A DNA stretch of 17,250 nucleotides, from NCBI GenBank assembly GCA_947468985.1, contig CANINJ010000007.1, positions 1 to 17,250 on the forward strand, written 5' to 3'. The notes under the pieces were generated by a model that was not told where the DNA came from, ran no database searches, and was given only the letters and a program-made list of their open reading frames with translations. The position numbers were made by a program, and so were the translations under genes. This DNA comes from Bacteroidota bacterium (GTDB lineage Bacteria; Bacteroidota; Bacteroidia; Flavobacteriales; Flavobacteriaceae). Below, in pieces: positions 7,896 through 17,250 of this stretch. The stretch's first letter is position 1, and the number at the start of each line of letters is the position of its first letter.

Positions 7896-9962
<2,067 letters not shown>

Positions 9963-13309: not shown

Positions 13310-13696
13310 TTATTTTTTAACTTCTATTGCATCAGTACTTAACAACTGATTATAAAGCGCTGCATTTGCTCTTAATTTTTCTAGTTGTTTTGAGTCGATT
13401 GTAGCTTCAATTTTTAAACCTACAATTCTTGACATTTCTCTTCTGCTTTCAACAGTTTCAGAGCTACTTTGCATTACGTTATGTTTCATTTCGAAAAGAG
13501 CAATAAAAGCAGTTCTTAAATTTTCGTCAAGTCCTAAAAATTCAGAAATAGCAACTCCGTCTTTTTTTGCTGCTTGTTTTGGAGTAAGATTAACAACTTC
13601 TTTCGTTTTAGCTACAACATTTTTTTTTATGCTTTGAGCATTTACAGATAAACTAAAAGAAAGCATTAAAAAACTAGCAATAATTATTTTTTTCAT
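13310..13696 (-). CDS. Small exported helical protein of unknown function
   Basis: I do not recognise a named family. The 128 residues begin with a Sec signal peptide (KKIII, then a hydrophobic core, cleavage probably after Ala20 in NAQ). The mature part has no cysteine and looks helical: a Lys-rich start, LTPKQAAKK (37-45), LDENLRTAFIALFEMKH (56-72) and a final IDSKQLEKLRANAALYNQLL segment. Two LTP/L-D-E-type helices separated by charged sequence recall the organisation of the Spy/CpxP-like protein encoded just upstream, so it may be a divergent relative, but this is inference. It is transcribed from 61 bases after the gene at 13758-14183, probably in the same operon, and ends at the terminator shared with hemL. 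A periplasmic location is expected. Confidence 0.8.
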   Translation of the reverse strand: MKKIIIASFLMLSFSLSVNAQSIKKNVVAKTKEVVNLTPKQAAKKDGVAISEFLGLDENLRTAFIALFEMKHNVMQSSSETVESRREMSRIVGLKIEATIDSKQLEKLRANAALYNQLLSTDAIEVKK

Positions 13697-13757
13697 GAGA
13701 ATTTATTTAAATTGAATTCAAATCTAAATGATTTTTATTTAAAAAAAAAATAATTGA

Positions 13758-14183
13758 TTATTTATCTTCTGATTTCTCACCTTTTTCTTCTCTTCGTTCT
13801 TTTATTTGTTCTTTTCTTTCTTTGATTTTTTCTTTTCTTCCTTCCATTTTCTCTTTTCTTTCTGCTTGTATTTTCTCCCAAGTTGCGTTTTGTTCTGGAG
13901 TAAGAATTTTGCTAATTTTATCTTTCATCAACTGACGGTCTGCTTTTGAGGCTTTGTTATTAATTTCTTTTTTAGCTTCGGCTTCTGAAAGTAATTCACT
14001 CATCTGTTTTTGTTGCGCCTCATTTAAACTCAGATTTTTCGTCATTCTTTTCAATGCCATTTGGCTTCTTTCAGCAGGAGACATTTTCTCCATTTGCTCT
14101 TTTTTAGCATTTTCCTTCATCTGAACTTGTGCAAATGTTGTAAATCCTACAACTAAAAATGCAGCTACAATTAATTTTTTCAT
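13758..14183 (-). CDS. Exported Spy/CpxP-like helical protein with a highly charged tail
   Basis: A 141-residue protein with a Sec signal peptide (cleavage probably after the Ala of TFAQ, near residue 18). The mature region contains SPAERSQMALKRMTKNLSLNEAQ (about 35-57) and LTPEQNATWEKIQAE (about 93-107), the paired L-x-x-x-Q/L-T-P-E-Q helices seen in Bacteroidota Spy/CpxP-like periplasmic proteins, which act as chaperones or stress sensors. From about residue 108 to the end nearly every residue is Lys, Glu, Arg, Gln or Asp in i/i+4 patterns (RKEKIKERKEQIKERREE), predicting a long single charged helix. No cysteine or histidine cluster speaks for direct metal binding. It is divergent from the copper-type genes starting at 14343 and probably cotranscribed with the 128-aa gene. 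The Spy link rests on pattern only. Confidence 0.78.
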   Translation of the reverse strand: MKKLIVAAFLVVGFTTFAQVQMKENAKKEQMEKMSPAERSQMALKRMTKNLSLNEAQQKQMSELLSEAEAKKEINNKASKADRQLMKDKISKILTPEQNATWEKIQAERKEKMEGRKEKIKERKEQIKERREEKGEKSEDK

Positions 14184-14330: not shown

Positions 14331-14338
14331 TAACTTTG
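14331..14338 (+). promoter_or_regulatory. -7 element very close to the CNGKC gene start
   Basis: TAACTTTG, a perfect TAnnTTTG, ends only 4 bases before the GTG at 14343. No TTG lies at the -33 distance. Transcription would begin at about the start codon. The rest of the 159-base gap 14184-14342 is AT-rich with no convincing operator. Confidence 0.5.
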
Positions 14339-14342
14339 CATC

Positions 14343-14714
14343 GTGAAAAAAACAGTATTCATTCTCGCCTTGTTAATGCTTCTAAAACCAGTACTTCCGG
14401 TTGTAGAATATGTGGTGAATTATGAATATATCTCGAAAGTTTTATGTGTCAATAAAGACAAACCAATGCTTCATTGTAATGGAAAATGTCAATTAATGAA
14501 GGAATTGGCAAAAGCGGCTGAAAATGAAAAACCTATTTCAGATAAAAAAATTGCTGCACAAGAATTTGAAGTTTTATTCATTGAAAATATTAAATCTTTT
14601 GAGGTAAAACCTTGTTTTTATTTTAGTACAACACAAATCAACAATAGCTATTCTAACTTTTATTCTCATTTGAATAGTTGTACCGTATTTCATCCACCAA
14701 CCTGTATTTCTTAA
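14343..14714 (+). CDS. Small cysteine-motif (CNGKC) membrane or exported protein, candidate copper-associated
   Basis: A 123-residue protein of no named family I can assign. Residues 4-25 form one hydrophobic segment after MKK: a signal peptide or anchor, without a lipobox. The following region holds LCVNKDKPMLHCNGKCQLMKEL (34-55; Cys35, His44, Cys45, Cys49), a C-x9-C-x3-C arrangement. The centre is charged (AAENEKPISDKK). The C-terminus carries Cys91, Cys113 and HPPTC (117-121). Six cysteines in a short exported protein suggest disulfides or metal binding. Context points to copper: the next gene encodes a Met/His-rich YtkA-like lipoprotein and the one after it an OprC-like receptor. Start is GTG at 14343, with an in-frame TAA upstream; ATG codon 12 (14376) is the alternative. 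I recall similar small proteins near such receptors in other Bacteroidota, but the role is unknown. Confidence 0.8.
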   Translation: MKKTVFILALLMLLKPVLPVVEYVVNYEYISKVLCVNKDKPMLHCNGKCQLMKELAKAAENEKPISDKKIAAQEFEVLFIENIKSFEVKPCFYFSTTQINNSYSNFYSHLNSCTVFHPPTCIS

Positions 14715-14738
14715 ATTTTATCAATTTTCGCTAGGAAT

Positions 14739-14766
14739 GTATCATTTAACAACAGTTTTATGATAC
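14739..14766 (+). repeat. Inverted repeat between the CNGKC and lipoprotein genes
   Basis: GTATCAT (14739-14745) and ATGATAC (14760-14766) form a 7-bp stem with a 14-base loop, followed by only three T. It could slow transcription or shape the mRNA between the two genes. It is too weak to call a terminator, and no separate promoter is obvious for the gene at 14821. Confidence 0.35.
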
Positions 14767-14820
14767 TTTATTCGTGCACTTTTAAAATACAATAAATTAA
14801 ATAATTTAAGAATATCAAAA

Positions 14821-15666
14821 ATGAAAAATATAATAAAAAATACAATTGCTATTTTGGCAGTTGCAATAAGTCTTGTTTCTTGTTCAAATAATGATGCTAC
14901 AACTCCAGTTGACGAGTTAGTAGGAATTTCAAAATTTAAAGAAATTTCAAATGCAACCCATACAATAGAATTGTATTCTCACATGTCTGTTGAACAAGGA
15001 TACAATGAAATTAAAATTAGAATTAAAGATAATTCTACAAATGAATATGTGAAAAATGCAGTTGTAAATTGGATGCCACTTATGCACATGGCCATGATGA
15101 CGCATTCTTGTCCTAAATCCGGTGTTGAAAAAATAACTGCCGACGGAACGATTTATGAAGGATATATAGTTTTTCAAATGGCTCAAAATGCTACGGAATA
15201 TTGGGATTTGAAAATAGATTATTCTGTAAATGGCACAAACTATTCTGTAACTACCGTAATTGATGTTCCGGCTGCTACTGAAAGAAATGTGAATACTTTT
15301 ACTGGATCAGACGGGATTATGTATATTGTGGTTTATGCTGAGCCACATCACCCAAAAGTTGCTTTAAATGATATGGTGGTGGGTGTTTTTAAAATGCAAG
15401 ACATGATGAATTTTCCAGTTGTTGATGGATATACATTGAAAATTGACCCAAGAATGCCAAGTATGGGAAACCATAGTTCTCCAAATAATGTCAATCCAAC
15501 TCAAATTAATCCAGGGGATTTATACACGGGTAAAATGGCCTTGACGATGACAGGTTATTGGAAAATTAATCTGCAATTAGTCAATCCAAATGGTGAAGTT
15601 GTTAAAGGAGAAGAAATATCAGATACTGTTTTAGGAAGTAGTATTTACTTTGATTTCGAATTTTAA
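14821..15666 (+). CDS. Lipoprotein with two YtkA-like, Met/His-rich domains (candidate copper binding)
   Basis: A 281-residue lipoprotein: the signal ends in SLVSC, lipidated at Cys21, followed by SNND, an acidic start that may favour surface export in Bacteroidota. Two similar halves follow. Half 1 (about 45-150) has MPLMHMAMMTHSCP (85-98) and then YEGYIVFQM...YWDLKIDYSVNG (112-138). Half 2 (about 165-275) has HH (176-177), MPSMGNHSSP (212-221), then YTGKMALTMTGYWKINLQL (235-253). Both share MPxM...HSxP then Y-x-G...M...YW, the arrangement of YtkA-like (FixH-related) domains. Methionine and histidine clusters of this type bind copper in periplasmic carriers. Placement between a CNGKC protein and an OprC-like receptor suggests it hands copper to or from the receptor or buffers it. 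It is followed by a strong hairpin. The tandem domain call is good; metal and direction are inference. Confidence 0.82.
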   Translation: MKNIIKNTIAILAVAISLVSCSNNDATTPVDELVGISKFKEISNATHTIELYSHMSVEQGYNEIKIRIKDNSTNEYVKNAVVNWMPLMHMAMMTHSCPKSGVEKITADGTIYEGYIVFQMAQNATEYWDLKIDYSVNGTNYSVTTVIDVPAATERNVNTFTGSDGIMYIVVYAEPHHPKVALNDMVVGVFKMQDMMNFPVVDGYTLKIDPRMPSMGNHSSPNNVNPTQINPGDLYTGKMALTMTGYWKINLQLVNPNGEVVKGEEISDTVLGSSIYFDFEF

Positions 15667-15680
15667 CAATTAATTAATTA

Positions 15681-15713
15681 GGTCAAAAATCGCATTGATT
15701 TTTGACCTTTTTT
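15681..15713 (+). terminator. Terminator-like hairpin directly before the receptor gene
   Basis: Perfect 11-bp stem GGTCAAAAATC (15681-15691) / GATTTTTGACC (15697-15707), 5-base loop, six T (15708-15713). It lies 14 bases after the lipoprotein stop and 8 bases before the receptor ATG at 15722. It would separate the two genes or act as a conditional attenuator, as no promoter fits between it and the receptor. Confidence 0.85.
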
Positions 15714-15721
15714 AAAATATT

Positions 15722-17250
15722 ATGAAAAATAAAGTTATATTATTTTTTCTGATGAATTCGTTTCATTTTGTTTTTTCACAAGTAATTCAAACGGATTCTA
15801 TCATTCCTATTGAAATAAAAGAGGTGATAGTTATTGGCAAAAAAGCCCAAGTTTCTGAAAAACAATCTAAACCACTTACAACGATTGATGATTATTTGCA
15901 AAAATCATCAAAAGTTGATATGATTAAGCGAGGTGCTTATGCTTGGGAGCCAATAATTAATAGTATGCCAACAGAGCGAACATTGGTAACCATTGATGGA
16001 ATGCGAATTTTTGGTGCTTGTACAGATAAAATGGATCCAATAACTTCCTACGTAGAAGTTTCTAATCTATCGGAGGCAACCATTTGTTCGGGTCAAGAAG
16101 GGGCTTGTTTTGGAAGTACAATTGGTGGTTCTATTGACTTAAAACGAAATCAATCAACATTTGGAAATCAAAAATGGGATTTTAGTTTAAACACAGGTTT
16201 TGAAACCAATAACAAGCAGAAAATTATTGGAACATCATTAAATTATTCTGATAAATTGTTTTATGTTGACACCGATTTTATGTTTCGTGATGCCGAAAAT
16301 TACATAGCTGGTGGCAATCAAGAAATTTTGTTTTCTCAATTTAAAAAGGTCAACTTTTCAGGAACTTCTGGATATAAATTAGATACAAATAAACGCATAG
16401 AAGCATCTTTTATTTATGATAAAGCTACCAATATCGGTTATCCAGCTTTACCAATGGATGTTGCTGTTGCGGAGGCAATTATTACCGCATTAAAATTTGA
16501 CTATTTACCAATAACATCTACTATAAAAAAATGGGAAACAAAATTGTATTTCAATAGCATAAACCATAAAATGGACGATACAAAACGACCTTTTGTTGCA
16601 ATTCACATGGACATGCCTGGCTGGAGTAAAACGTATGGATATTATTCTAAAATTAATGGAAATTATAATAACCATTTCTTTTTATTAAATGCAAATTCTT
16701 TTTACAATAAATCGGTTGCCGAAATGACAATGTATCCAAATAATCCAAATGAAAACCCAATGTTTATGTATACTTGGCCCGATGTGAGTACATTTTATAA
16801 TGGTTTTTTTATAGAAGATAATTATGCTTTAAATTGTCATTCAAGTCTTAAAACTTCAGTGTCACTTGGAAGTCATATAAATAAAGTTGAAAGCCAATTT
16901 GGATTGGAAAGTTTGCAAATTTTTTATCCTAAAATGAGGGCGCAAAACAATAGGTTTTTAAAAAGTTTCTCCTCTAATTATAATTACAATCTGCAAGGTT
17001 TTGAATATGGATTTGGTTTTGGATATGGCGAAAGAGCACCTTCGGTTTCTGAAGGATATGGGTTTTATTTATTCAATAGTTTTGACGGTTTTGACAACAT
17101 AGGAAACCCAAATTTAAAAAATGAAAATTCCATAGAAGGCAATGCTTTTATTGGGTTTAAAACCAAAAAAGGTAGTGCTAAAATAGCATCTTCCTACTTT
17201 CATATTTCTAATTATATTGTTGGAAAACCAAGTTTAAATTTGATTCCTAT
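15722..17250 (+). CDS. TonB-dependent outer-membrane receptor, OprC/NosA-like copper receptor, 3' end outside window
   Basis: Outer-membrane active transporter driven by TonB. The 509 complete codons cover signal peptide (cleavage near Ser19/Gln20), plug and the first part of the barrel. The plug holds IEIKEVIVIGKK (30-41), INSMPTERTLVTIDGMRIFG (79-98), and GSTIGGSIDL (131-140). The sequence GACTDKMDPITSY (98-110) resembles the GGCPNRMDPPTSY stretch of OprC/NosA copper receptors. Cys100 and Met104 make CxxxM, and NHKMDD (281-286) gives His282 and Met284 (HxM). OprC uses Cys143, Met147, His323 and Met325 as I recall; the gap between the two pairs is 176 residues there and 178 here. Two extra plug cysteines (122, 129) are present. 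The barrel shows aromatic, alternating strands (GERAPSVSEGYG near 436-447). It follows the YtkA-like lipoprotein with a hairpin between. Copper as substrate is well supported but not proven. Confidence 0.88.
   Translation, partial: MKNKVILFFLMNSFHFVFSQVIQTDSIIPIEIKEVIVIGKKAQVSEKQSKPLTTIDDYLQKSSKVDMIKRGAYAWEPIINSMPTERTLVTIDGMRIFGACTDKMDPITSYVEVSNLSEATICSGQEGACFGSTIGGSIDLKRNQSTFGNQKWDFSLNTGFETNNKQKIIGTSLNYSDKLFYVDTDFMFRDAENYIAGGNQEILFSQFKKVNFSGTSGYKLDTNKRIEASFIYDKATNIGYPALPMDVAVAEAIITALKFDYLPITSTIKKWETKLYFNSINHKMDDTKRPFVAIHMDMPGWSKTYGYYSKINGNYNNHFFLLNANSFYNKSVAEMTMYPNNPNENPMFMYTWPDVSTFYNGFFIEDNYALNCHSSLKTSVSLGSHINKVESQFGLESLQIFYPKMRAQNNRFLKSFSSNYNYNLQGFEYGFGFGYGERAPSVSEGYGFYLFNSFDGFDNIGNPNLKNENSIEGNAFIGFKTKKGSAKIASSYFHISNYIVGKPSLNLIP

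Follow-up and report, generated by a model that had tools for sequence, protein, structure and literature searches.

The main biological route for removal of the greenhouse gas nitrous oxide (N2O) is N2O reductase, an enzyme that contains copper. The receptors closest to the system considered here are OprC of Pseudomonas aeruginosa, the copper ligands of which are C143, M147, H323, and M325, and its orthologue NosA of P. stutzeri, which was tied to N2O reductase and later became the subject of a contrary report; OprC-like TonB receptors import (PMC8610252), and one with the CxxxM-HxM residues was previously pointed out in the flavobacterium Bizionia (PMC11213822). Small leader proteins have also been described ahead of copper genes. 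CruR, a DUF2946 leader, precedes a copper-responsive TonB-dependent transporter in Bordetella, where control by copper depends on its CXXC motif, and expression on its C-terminal RAPP (PMC9426467); CutF-like leaders, 19% of which were listed in Bacteroidota, precede efflux genes in many cases (PMC9973294). Among proteins with a YtkA-type fold, CrdA is a copper-resistance determinant of Helicobacter pylori (PMC9182242), and the copper site of an oxidase is assembled with support from CtaK and from the YtkA domain of YcnJ (PMC13344008). In the present study, we analyzed a stretch of 17,250 nucleotides from a member of the Bacteroidota (the window; contig CANINJ010000007.1 of assembly GCA_947468985.1), the end of which carries three consecutive plus-strand genes, in the order of a small cysteine-containing protein (gene 1), a YtkA-type lipoprotein (gene 2), and an OprC-like receptor (gene 3). 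The reading that we favor, with a probability of about 0.62, is that of a copper-acquisition operon in which gene 1 is a copper-sensing leader, the lipoprotein captures copper, and the receptor imports it, with a link to nos genes in relatives.

Every part of the cassette has a known relative. The literature searched (titles, the beginnings of abstracts, and parts of papers) contained no description of this gene combination and no characterized outer-membrane copper-acquisition system of Bacteroidota; a first-pass annotation of the window had similarly known of no characterized system with this trio. The genome assembly that contains the window (contig C7) is 1.9 Mb in size and 66% complete, and belongs to a freshwater Flavobacterium-type bacterium. 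The last 131 bases of the window are the first 131 bases of contig C135, which carries the remainder of the receptor gene; the operon appears to end there because the next long open reading frame (ORF) on C135 lies on the opposite strand. The features of the cassette are as follows.

14331..14338, plus strand: TAACTTTG, a TAnnTTTG-type -7 box that ends 4 nt before the start codon of gene 1
14343..14714, plus strand: gene 1, GTG start, 123 aa, six cysteines, hydrophobic N-terminal segment
14475..14489, plus strand: CNGKC (CxxxC; C45 and C49, with C35 upstream), putative copper site, all three cysteines in 79/79 rows
14691..14699, plus strand: HPP, 4 residues before the C terminus of gene 1, putative ribosome-slowing motif, PP spacing in 78 parsed rows
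14739..14766, plus strand: inverted repeat (GTATCAT...ATGATAC) of uncertain role, between genes 1 and 2
14821..15666, plus strand: gene 2, predicted lipoprotein of 281 aa, lipid cysteine C21, domains 37-150 and 152-281
15680..15708, plus strand: terminator-like hairpin with 13 pairs and a T-run between genes 2 and 3
15722..17250, plus strand: gene 3, the 5' three quarters of a TonB receptor, the rest being on C135 (L004, 1-597)
16019..16033, plus strand: CxxxM (C100 and M104), putative receptor copper site, aligned with OprC ligands
16565..16573, plus strand: HxM (H282 and M284), putative receptor copper site, aligned with OprC ligands

The first-pass annotation had described three consecutive plus-strand genes encoding a six-cysteine CNGKC protein, a lipoprotein with two YtkA-like domains, and a TonB receptor with OprC-type CxxxM/HxM residues, and the ORF positions, domain matches, and ligand alignments bear out this description, although just C35, C45, and C49 of gene 1 are conserved. 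It had also proposed that the co-occurrence of the three families be examined across Bacteroidota, and that a lack of conserved co-occurrence, or receptor relatives that lack the CxxxM/HxM residues and are proven to carry another substrate, would speak against the cassette; neither outcome was seen, co-occurrence being conserved and the residues retained. When GTDB species genomes were scanned with the gene 2 protein, 239 relatives were obtained, the best 80 of which by similarity to the window lipoprotein were fetched; this set is biased to Flavobacterium, and its proportions are those of non-independent samples due to the shared ancestry of the loci. Gene 1 was upstream of gene 2 in 78/80 loci, and gene 3 followed it in 79/80; the loci that deviate (L022, L067, and L005) lie at contig edges. 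The distance between genes 1 and 2 was 963 nt in L050 and 331 nt in L033. In a second sample of 394 Bacteroidota genomes, gene 2 (match at E<=1e-10) was present in 35, gene 3 (E<=1e-30) in 54, and both in 32, such that the receptor family occurred in 32 of the 35 genomes with the lipoprotein vs 22 of the 359 without it (Fisher p 4e-29).

Regarding gene 3, the receptor is 665 aa at full length across C7 and C135, and its plug domain (PF07715) scored over the gathering score. The only PDB matches of the receptor at E<=0.001 were OprC entries, and, at E<=1e-5, a profile of 30 relatives matched a single PDB family, OprC, with an E of 3.6e-26 over positions 56-663 of 664. C100, M104, H282, and M284 were all present in every row examined, namely, 75/75 close rows (five short receptors were left out), 29/29 distant rows, and 16/16 further rows; among the last, L146 is a second occurrence of a distant-set gene. 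M245, M296, M298, M335, and M337, a putative methionine track, were invariant in the same close and distant rows (75/75 and 29/29); in the further rows, M245 was found in 16/16, whereas 12 or 13 rows had each of the remaining four. M298 was missing from the four receptors for which gene 2 was undetectable (L133, L135, L136, and L137) and kept in the 12 others; the receptors without a detectable lipoprotein thus lack part of the conserved methionine positions and keep CxxxM-HxM. The protein resembles OprC and NosA as a TonB receptor with CxxxM-HxM, and differs from them in a TIGR01778 score far below the cut-off, its Bacteroidota host, and its accompaniment by a two-domain lipoprotein and a leader.

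Gene 2 contains two stretches that match PF13115 (YtkA; E 2.2e-7, 31.9 bits vs a gathering score of 25.9), and both domains match the CrdA fold. M212, M215, H218, and M243 were present in 81/81 close and 31/31 distant rows, and the region of M212, M215, and M243-G-x-W aligned with CrdA at a weak E of 0.013. The fold of both domains and the Pfam family are shared with CrdA of H. pylori and YtkA/CtaK of Bacillus subtilis, and the methionine-rich site may be so as well. The window protein differs in carrying tandem domains on one lipoprotein beside a TonB receptor, and CrdA is without the histidine found in the gene 2 site (PMC9182242). The annotation had placed copper binding at the cell surface. 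Acidic residues after the lipid cysteine in 64/80 close relatives suggest such a location for those proteins; the window copy, with one acidic residue in positions +1 to +5, does not carry the signal. The NosL and NosZ controls for this signal comprised only rows with a lipobox pattern (8 and 19, respectively).

Gene 1 is probably a copper-sensing leader rather than a carrier, as judged from its sequence and position. Its rows follow the motif C-x-N...P...C-x-G-K-C, then 65-71 mostly variable residues, and then PP, in 78 of the 79 rows (the leader of L063 did not parse). In 76/78 parsed rows, 1-4 residues follow the PP, and the residue before it is H in 67 rows and R in 7 (74/78); by comparison, PP was found in the last 15 residues of only 1/318 other small ORFs at the same loci. 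C35, C45, and C49 were each conserved in 79/79 rows, vs 3/79 for C91, 25/79 for C113, and 4/79 for C121. When set against the rules for CutF-like leaders (PMC9973294), gene 1 encodes 123 aa (<150), has PP within the 15 C-terminal residues and CxxxC (CNGKC, both cysteines in 79/79), and is followed by a same-strand gene 106 nt away (<1000); its N terminus is visibly hydrophobic and may be a Sec signal peptide. A profile search with gene 1 gave 1322 homologues at E<=1e-3, and no Pfam domain was found on the 120 homologues among the matches listed. Like CutF and CruR, gene 1 is small and first in its operon, with a hydrophobic N terminus, a cysteine motif (CxxxC, as in CutF), and PP near the C terminus, and, like CruR, it heads the operon of a copper TonB-dependent transporter (PMC9426467). 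It differs from both in its partners, a YtkA-type lipoprotein and an OprC-like receptor. Membership in the DUF2946/CruR family was considered and rejected because CxxxC, a spacer of 65-71 residues, and mostly (H/R)PP stand in place of CXXC, approximately 45 residues, and RAPP.

The wider phylum set (L096-L145, 50 loci, 49 with enough upstream sequence for counting) contained a leader directly upstream in 34/49 loci, 32 of which have PP within the last 15 residues. Twenty-five matched the gene 1 profile, and the other 9 were Cys/His-rich ORFs ending in (R/K)PP that it did not match. This replacement suggests a leader function for gene 1, as does its position directly before four OprC-like receptors without a detectable lipoprotein gene (L133, L135, L136, and L137), and its PP tail, CxxxC spacing, and first place behind the only recognizable promoter box point to a CutF/CruR-like leader. 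Leaders of the Cys/His type are associated with one set of families (loci L131, L133, L135-L137, and L117-L118 were considered).

The promoter region is consistent with this assignment. TAnnTTTG, which we take to be the Bacteroidota -7 consensus, occurred in the 150 nt ahead of gene 1 in 71/77 relatives and exactly 4 nt before the start in 47, vs letter-shuffle means of 10.4/77 and 0.04/77, respectively; it was found ahead of gene 2 in 0/79 and of gene 3 in 2/79. Since the box ends 4 nt before the GTG start, the transcript of gene 1 may be leaderless or nearly so. The codon aligned with the window start in 78 relatives was GTG in 32, ATG in 26, and TTG in 10. An FNR-like dyad, TATGA-N6-TCATA, was present within 120 nt ahead of gene 1 in 43/50 loci linked to nos genes, nitric oxide (NO) reductase genes, or an adjacent Crp/Fnr gene, vs 2/28 unlinked loci (p 3.5e-12). 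The dyad was also found upstream of 102/1240 other ORFs at these loci, including nos and NO-reductase genes and a divergent regulator; the argument for gene 1 lies in the fixed spacing to its own -7 box, with the dyad center exactly 30 bp before the box in 36/43 dyad-bearing regions with a box, presumably a class-II Fnr position. Between genes 2 and 3, a terminator-like hairpin was found in 40/80 relatives vs a letter-shuffle mean of 3.8, and may set the level of the lipoprotein above that of the receptor. Across the family, the sequence between genes 1 and 2 was more folded than its shuffled counterparts (n=77, median z -2.68).

The strongest physiological clue is the recurrent linkage to nos and NO-reductase islands. 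Inside the fetched 10-kb flanks, 45/80 loci contained nos and/or NO-reductase genes: 29 had at least two of nosZ, nosD, and nosY by BLAST, which defines the nos label, and 16 had NO reductase only, a label based on COX1-family matches together with PDB matches only to NorB at E<=1e-5. Of the 60 loci for which both flanks covered 9 kb or more, 36 were linked (25 nos and 11 NO reductase only). Family models confirmed the HemL, NosZ, NosD, NosL, NrdD, LysS, and LipB queries, as PDB matches did that of NorB; the NosF, NosY, and NosB labels are putative and based on position. Nos genes were present at 10/35 fetched places of the distant set, and in L119 and L124, the gene order in one direction was nosZ-nosB-nosL-gene 2-gene 3-nosD-nosF-nosY, with the pair inside the nos operon. 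On a FastTree receptor tree, which has long branches among the distant rows and for which the nos labels of these rows were entered by hand, the nos label changed 20 times and the nos/NO-reductase label 21 times, at least 15 of these changes being forced by starred branches; linkage was, therefore, gained or lost repeatedly. Clade II nosZ genes are numerous in Bacteroidota: NosZ scored over the model cut-off in 127/394 sampled genomes. It was found in 21/35 genomes with gene 2 vs 108/359 others (p 6e-4) and in 34/54 with gene 3 vs 95/340 others (p 1e-6). The flavobacterial clade II nos clusters are the neighborhood of 29/80 cassettes, and differ in that they were described as nosZ-nosL-nosD-nosF-nosY without the cassette in the passages searched (PMC9697520, PMC7477175) and that the window copy has a different genomic location. 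The window genome itself encodes a clade II NosZ in another island (L087; G000:C39, 1-11410), in which the same dyad stands at position 9351, before cytochrome c-nosZ genes. The genome of F. cheniae carries both an unlinked and a nos-linked cassette (L010 and L038).

The best reading of the cassette is outer-membrane copper acquisition, based on the co-occurrence of the genes, an OprC-like receptor with an intact site, and a lipoprotein with a copper-protein fold. We infer copper binding, the direction of copper flow, stalling, and the clients. A single promoter ahead of gene 1 would drive all three genes, as suggested by the single -7 box. Gene 1 would be a short exported leader that samples copper at its CxNK...CNGKC site while nascent, and its (H/R)PP tail may slow the ribosome and set whether transcription or translation reaches genes 2 and 3, as has been proposed for CruR and CutF. 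With scarce copper, the tail would slow the ribosome and the operon would be on; with plentiful copper, the nascent cysteine motif would bind the metal and downstream transcription or translation would be off, a CruR-like direction adopted here in view of the importer that the operon encodes. The lipoprotein may capture copper through its Met/His sites, of which M212-M215-H218-M243 is the more conserved, and exchange it with the receptor, presumably in the direction of import. The receptor would bind copper at CxxxM-HxM, probably below the putative methionine track, and, by homology, import it into the periplasm with TonB energy for NosZ and other copper enzymes. In nos-linked relatives, N2O reductase may be a main client because the module is tied to nos/NO-reductase islands with an FNR-like site, and the unlinked window copy may serve NosZ and heme-copper oxidases generally. 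More tentatively, at somewhat under even odds, Bacteroidota may control copper import across the outer membrane by copper-sensing nascent leaders on leaderless transcripts, and such leaders may have arisen at least twice, with metal-binding heads of no detectable similarity (CxNK...CxGKC and CEV.FCYC...CTCHH) converging on (H/R/K)PP ahead of the same pair of CrdA-type lipoprotein and OprC-like receptor; repeated capture by Fnr-controlled N2O-reduction islands may then gate N2O consumption by copper through a sensor on the ribosome. If true, the reading would name genes that supply copper to Bacteroidota N2O reductase in or beside nos islands, allow a direct test of the conditions under which these bacteria can consume N2O, and broaden the range of genes known to be controlled by nascent copper-sensing chains.

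A number of observations weigh against this reading. Ribosome arrest had not been directly demonstrated even for CruR and CutF (PMC10987492), and gene 1 departs from these leaders in being without DUF2946 and in ending with (H/R)PP rather than RAPP. There was no match to DUF2946 (PF11162) at the cassette in the 16 genomes searched, with three sub-cut-off matches elsewhere, and PF11162 was not among the 14 families matched by members of sequence set A3. By the rule used, 15/49 phylum loci had no leader directly upstream; among these, a PP-tailed or gene 1-like ORF lies 1.3-2.1 kb upstream in L126, L134, L140, L141, and L145. In the one pair compared, dN/dS was 0.107, 0.093, and 0.134 for genes 1, 2, and 3, respectively, and gene 1 thus evolved no faster. 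No hairpin sequence is conserved across the family in the gap that separates genes 1 and 2, and the gap between genes 2 and 3 is more folded still (median z -4.85, n=80). The copper-type residues of domain 1 of the lipoprotein vary outside close relatives. The 509-aa receptor fragment scored 78.9 bits on TIGR01778 ('TonB-copper'), far under the cut-off of 472.45, and is, therefore, not classed as an equivalog of that family. The window copy is not beside nos genes and has no dyad ahead of gene 1, and 14/35 genomes with gene 2 had no NosZ match.

The annotation had also regarded gene 1 as the recipient of the imported copper, and, in this form, it would be an envelope carrier or membrane-anchored chaperone, the cysteines of which bind Cu(I) brought in by the receptor and pass it on, with genes 2 and 3 acting as proposed above. 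The three invariant cysteines are compatible with this function, as are the dN/dS value, which resembles those of its neighbors, and the gene 1-like ORFs that also occur after the receptor in L099-L101, L103, L104, L127, and L068. We nevertheless consider a carrier unlikely: PP is held at a fixed distance from CxxxC and close to the end, approximately 60 residues between them vary, a Cys/His-rich ORF outside the profile with the same kind of tail takes the place of gene 1 in 9 loci, and gene 1 was not found in L119, L124, and L125, in which the pair of genes 2 and 3 lies with nos genes (it is present in L114). These features, together with the promoter position, point to a regulatory leader; of the envelope copper route that had been proposed, outer-membrane acquisition by genes 2 and 3 stands, and the carrier role of gene 1 is not supported. 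Regarding the ORFs after the receptor, a second gene 1-like ORF with PP near the C terminus directly follows it at L099 8902-9285, L101 3579-3947, L068 12908-13285, and others, and may head a further operon.

The capture of the cassette by nos islands may also reflect nothing other than a shared anaerobic Fnr-type regulator, the real client being a different copper-dependent enzyme, for instance a heme-copper oxidase. The genomes with gene 2 and without a NosZ match would be accounted for, as would the unlinked window copy, in a genome that also encodes heme-copper-oxidase-family proteins. This explanation appears improbable given the position of the pair between nosL and nosD in one direction in L119 and L124 and the approximately 20 changes in linkage on the receptor tree. 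A protective function, in which the lipoprotein acts as a sink for surplus copper and the receptor takes part in surface handling rather than uptake for use, is quite unlikely; it has precedents in the copper resistance conferred through CrdA (PMC9182242) and in the efflux genes behind many CutF-like leaders (PMC9973294), and is opposed by the import function of OprC-like receptors (PMC8610252), the absence of an efflux pump among the nameable recurrent neighbor groups, and the linkage to nos/NO-reductase islands. Least likely of all is a receptor for a chelated copper compound or another metal, for which the TIGR01778 score and the uptake of chelates by some copper receptors, such as CrtA (PMC12914433), may be cited, against the conservation of all four ligands in every row examined, OprC as the sole PDB family at E<=1e-5, and the Met/His copper-fold protein encoded next door.

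Returning to the acquisition operon and its surroundings, the contig of L087 breaks inside a Crp/Fnr gene, and nos-linked relatives carry the cassette next to this place; a second, unassembled copy in the window genome is, therefore, possible. A protein of approximately 410 aa, hydrophobic by eye and without a Pfam match, is encoded between the Crp/Fnr and fasciclin genes at L015 7583-8800 (minus strand), L012 7540-8787 (minus), and L087 580-1812 (plus), and occurs in 31/60 fully covered loci. Upstream of the cassette, the window contains hemL and small genes. Two small divergent genes lie beside the cassette at 13310-14183 (minus strand), one of which is weakly Spy-like (26 bits, cut-off 174) and the other has a weak LTXXQ match; a Spy-like gene also flanks several unlinked cassettes. 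L008 (CALPUN020000002.1), the record of which is titled Bifidobacterium breve, carries a Flavobacterium-type cassette and NO-reductase genes, and is probably mislabelled or mis-binned. A hybrid sensor histidine kinase is encoded at 7896-9962 (minus strand) of the window; it contains PAS domains and a receiver domain, the latter preceded by a run of approximately 14 asparagines.

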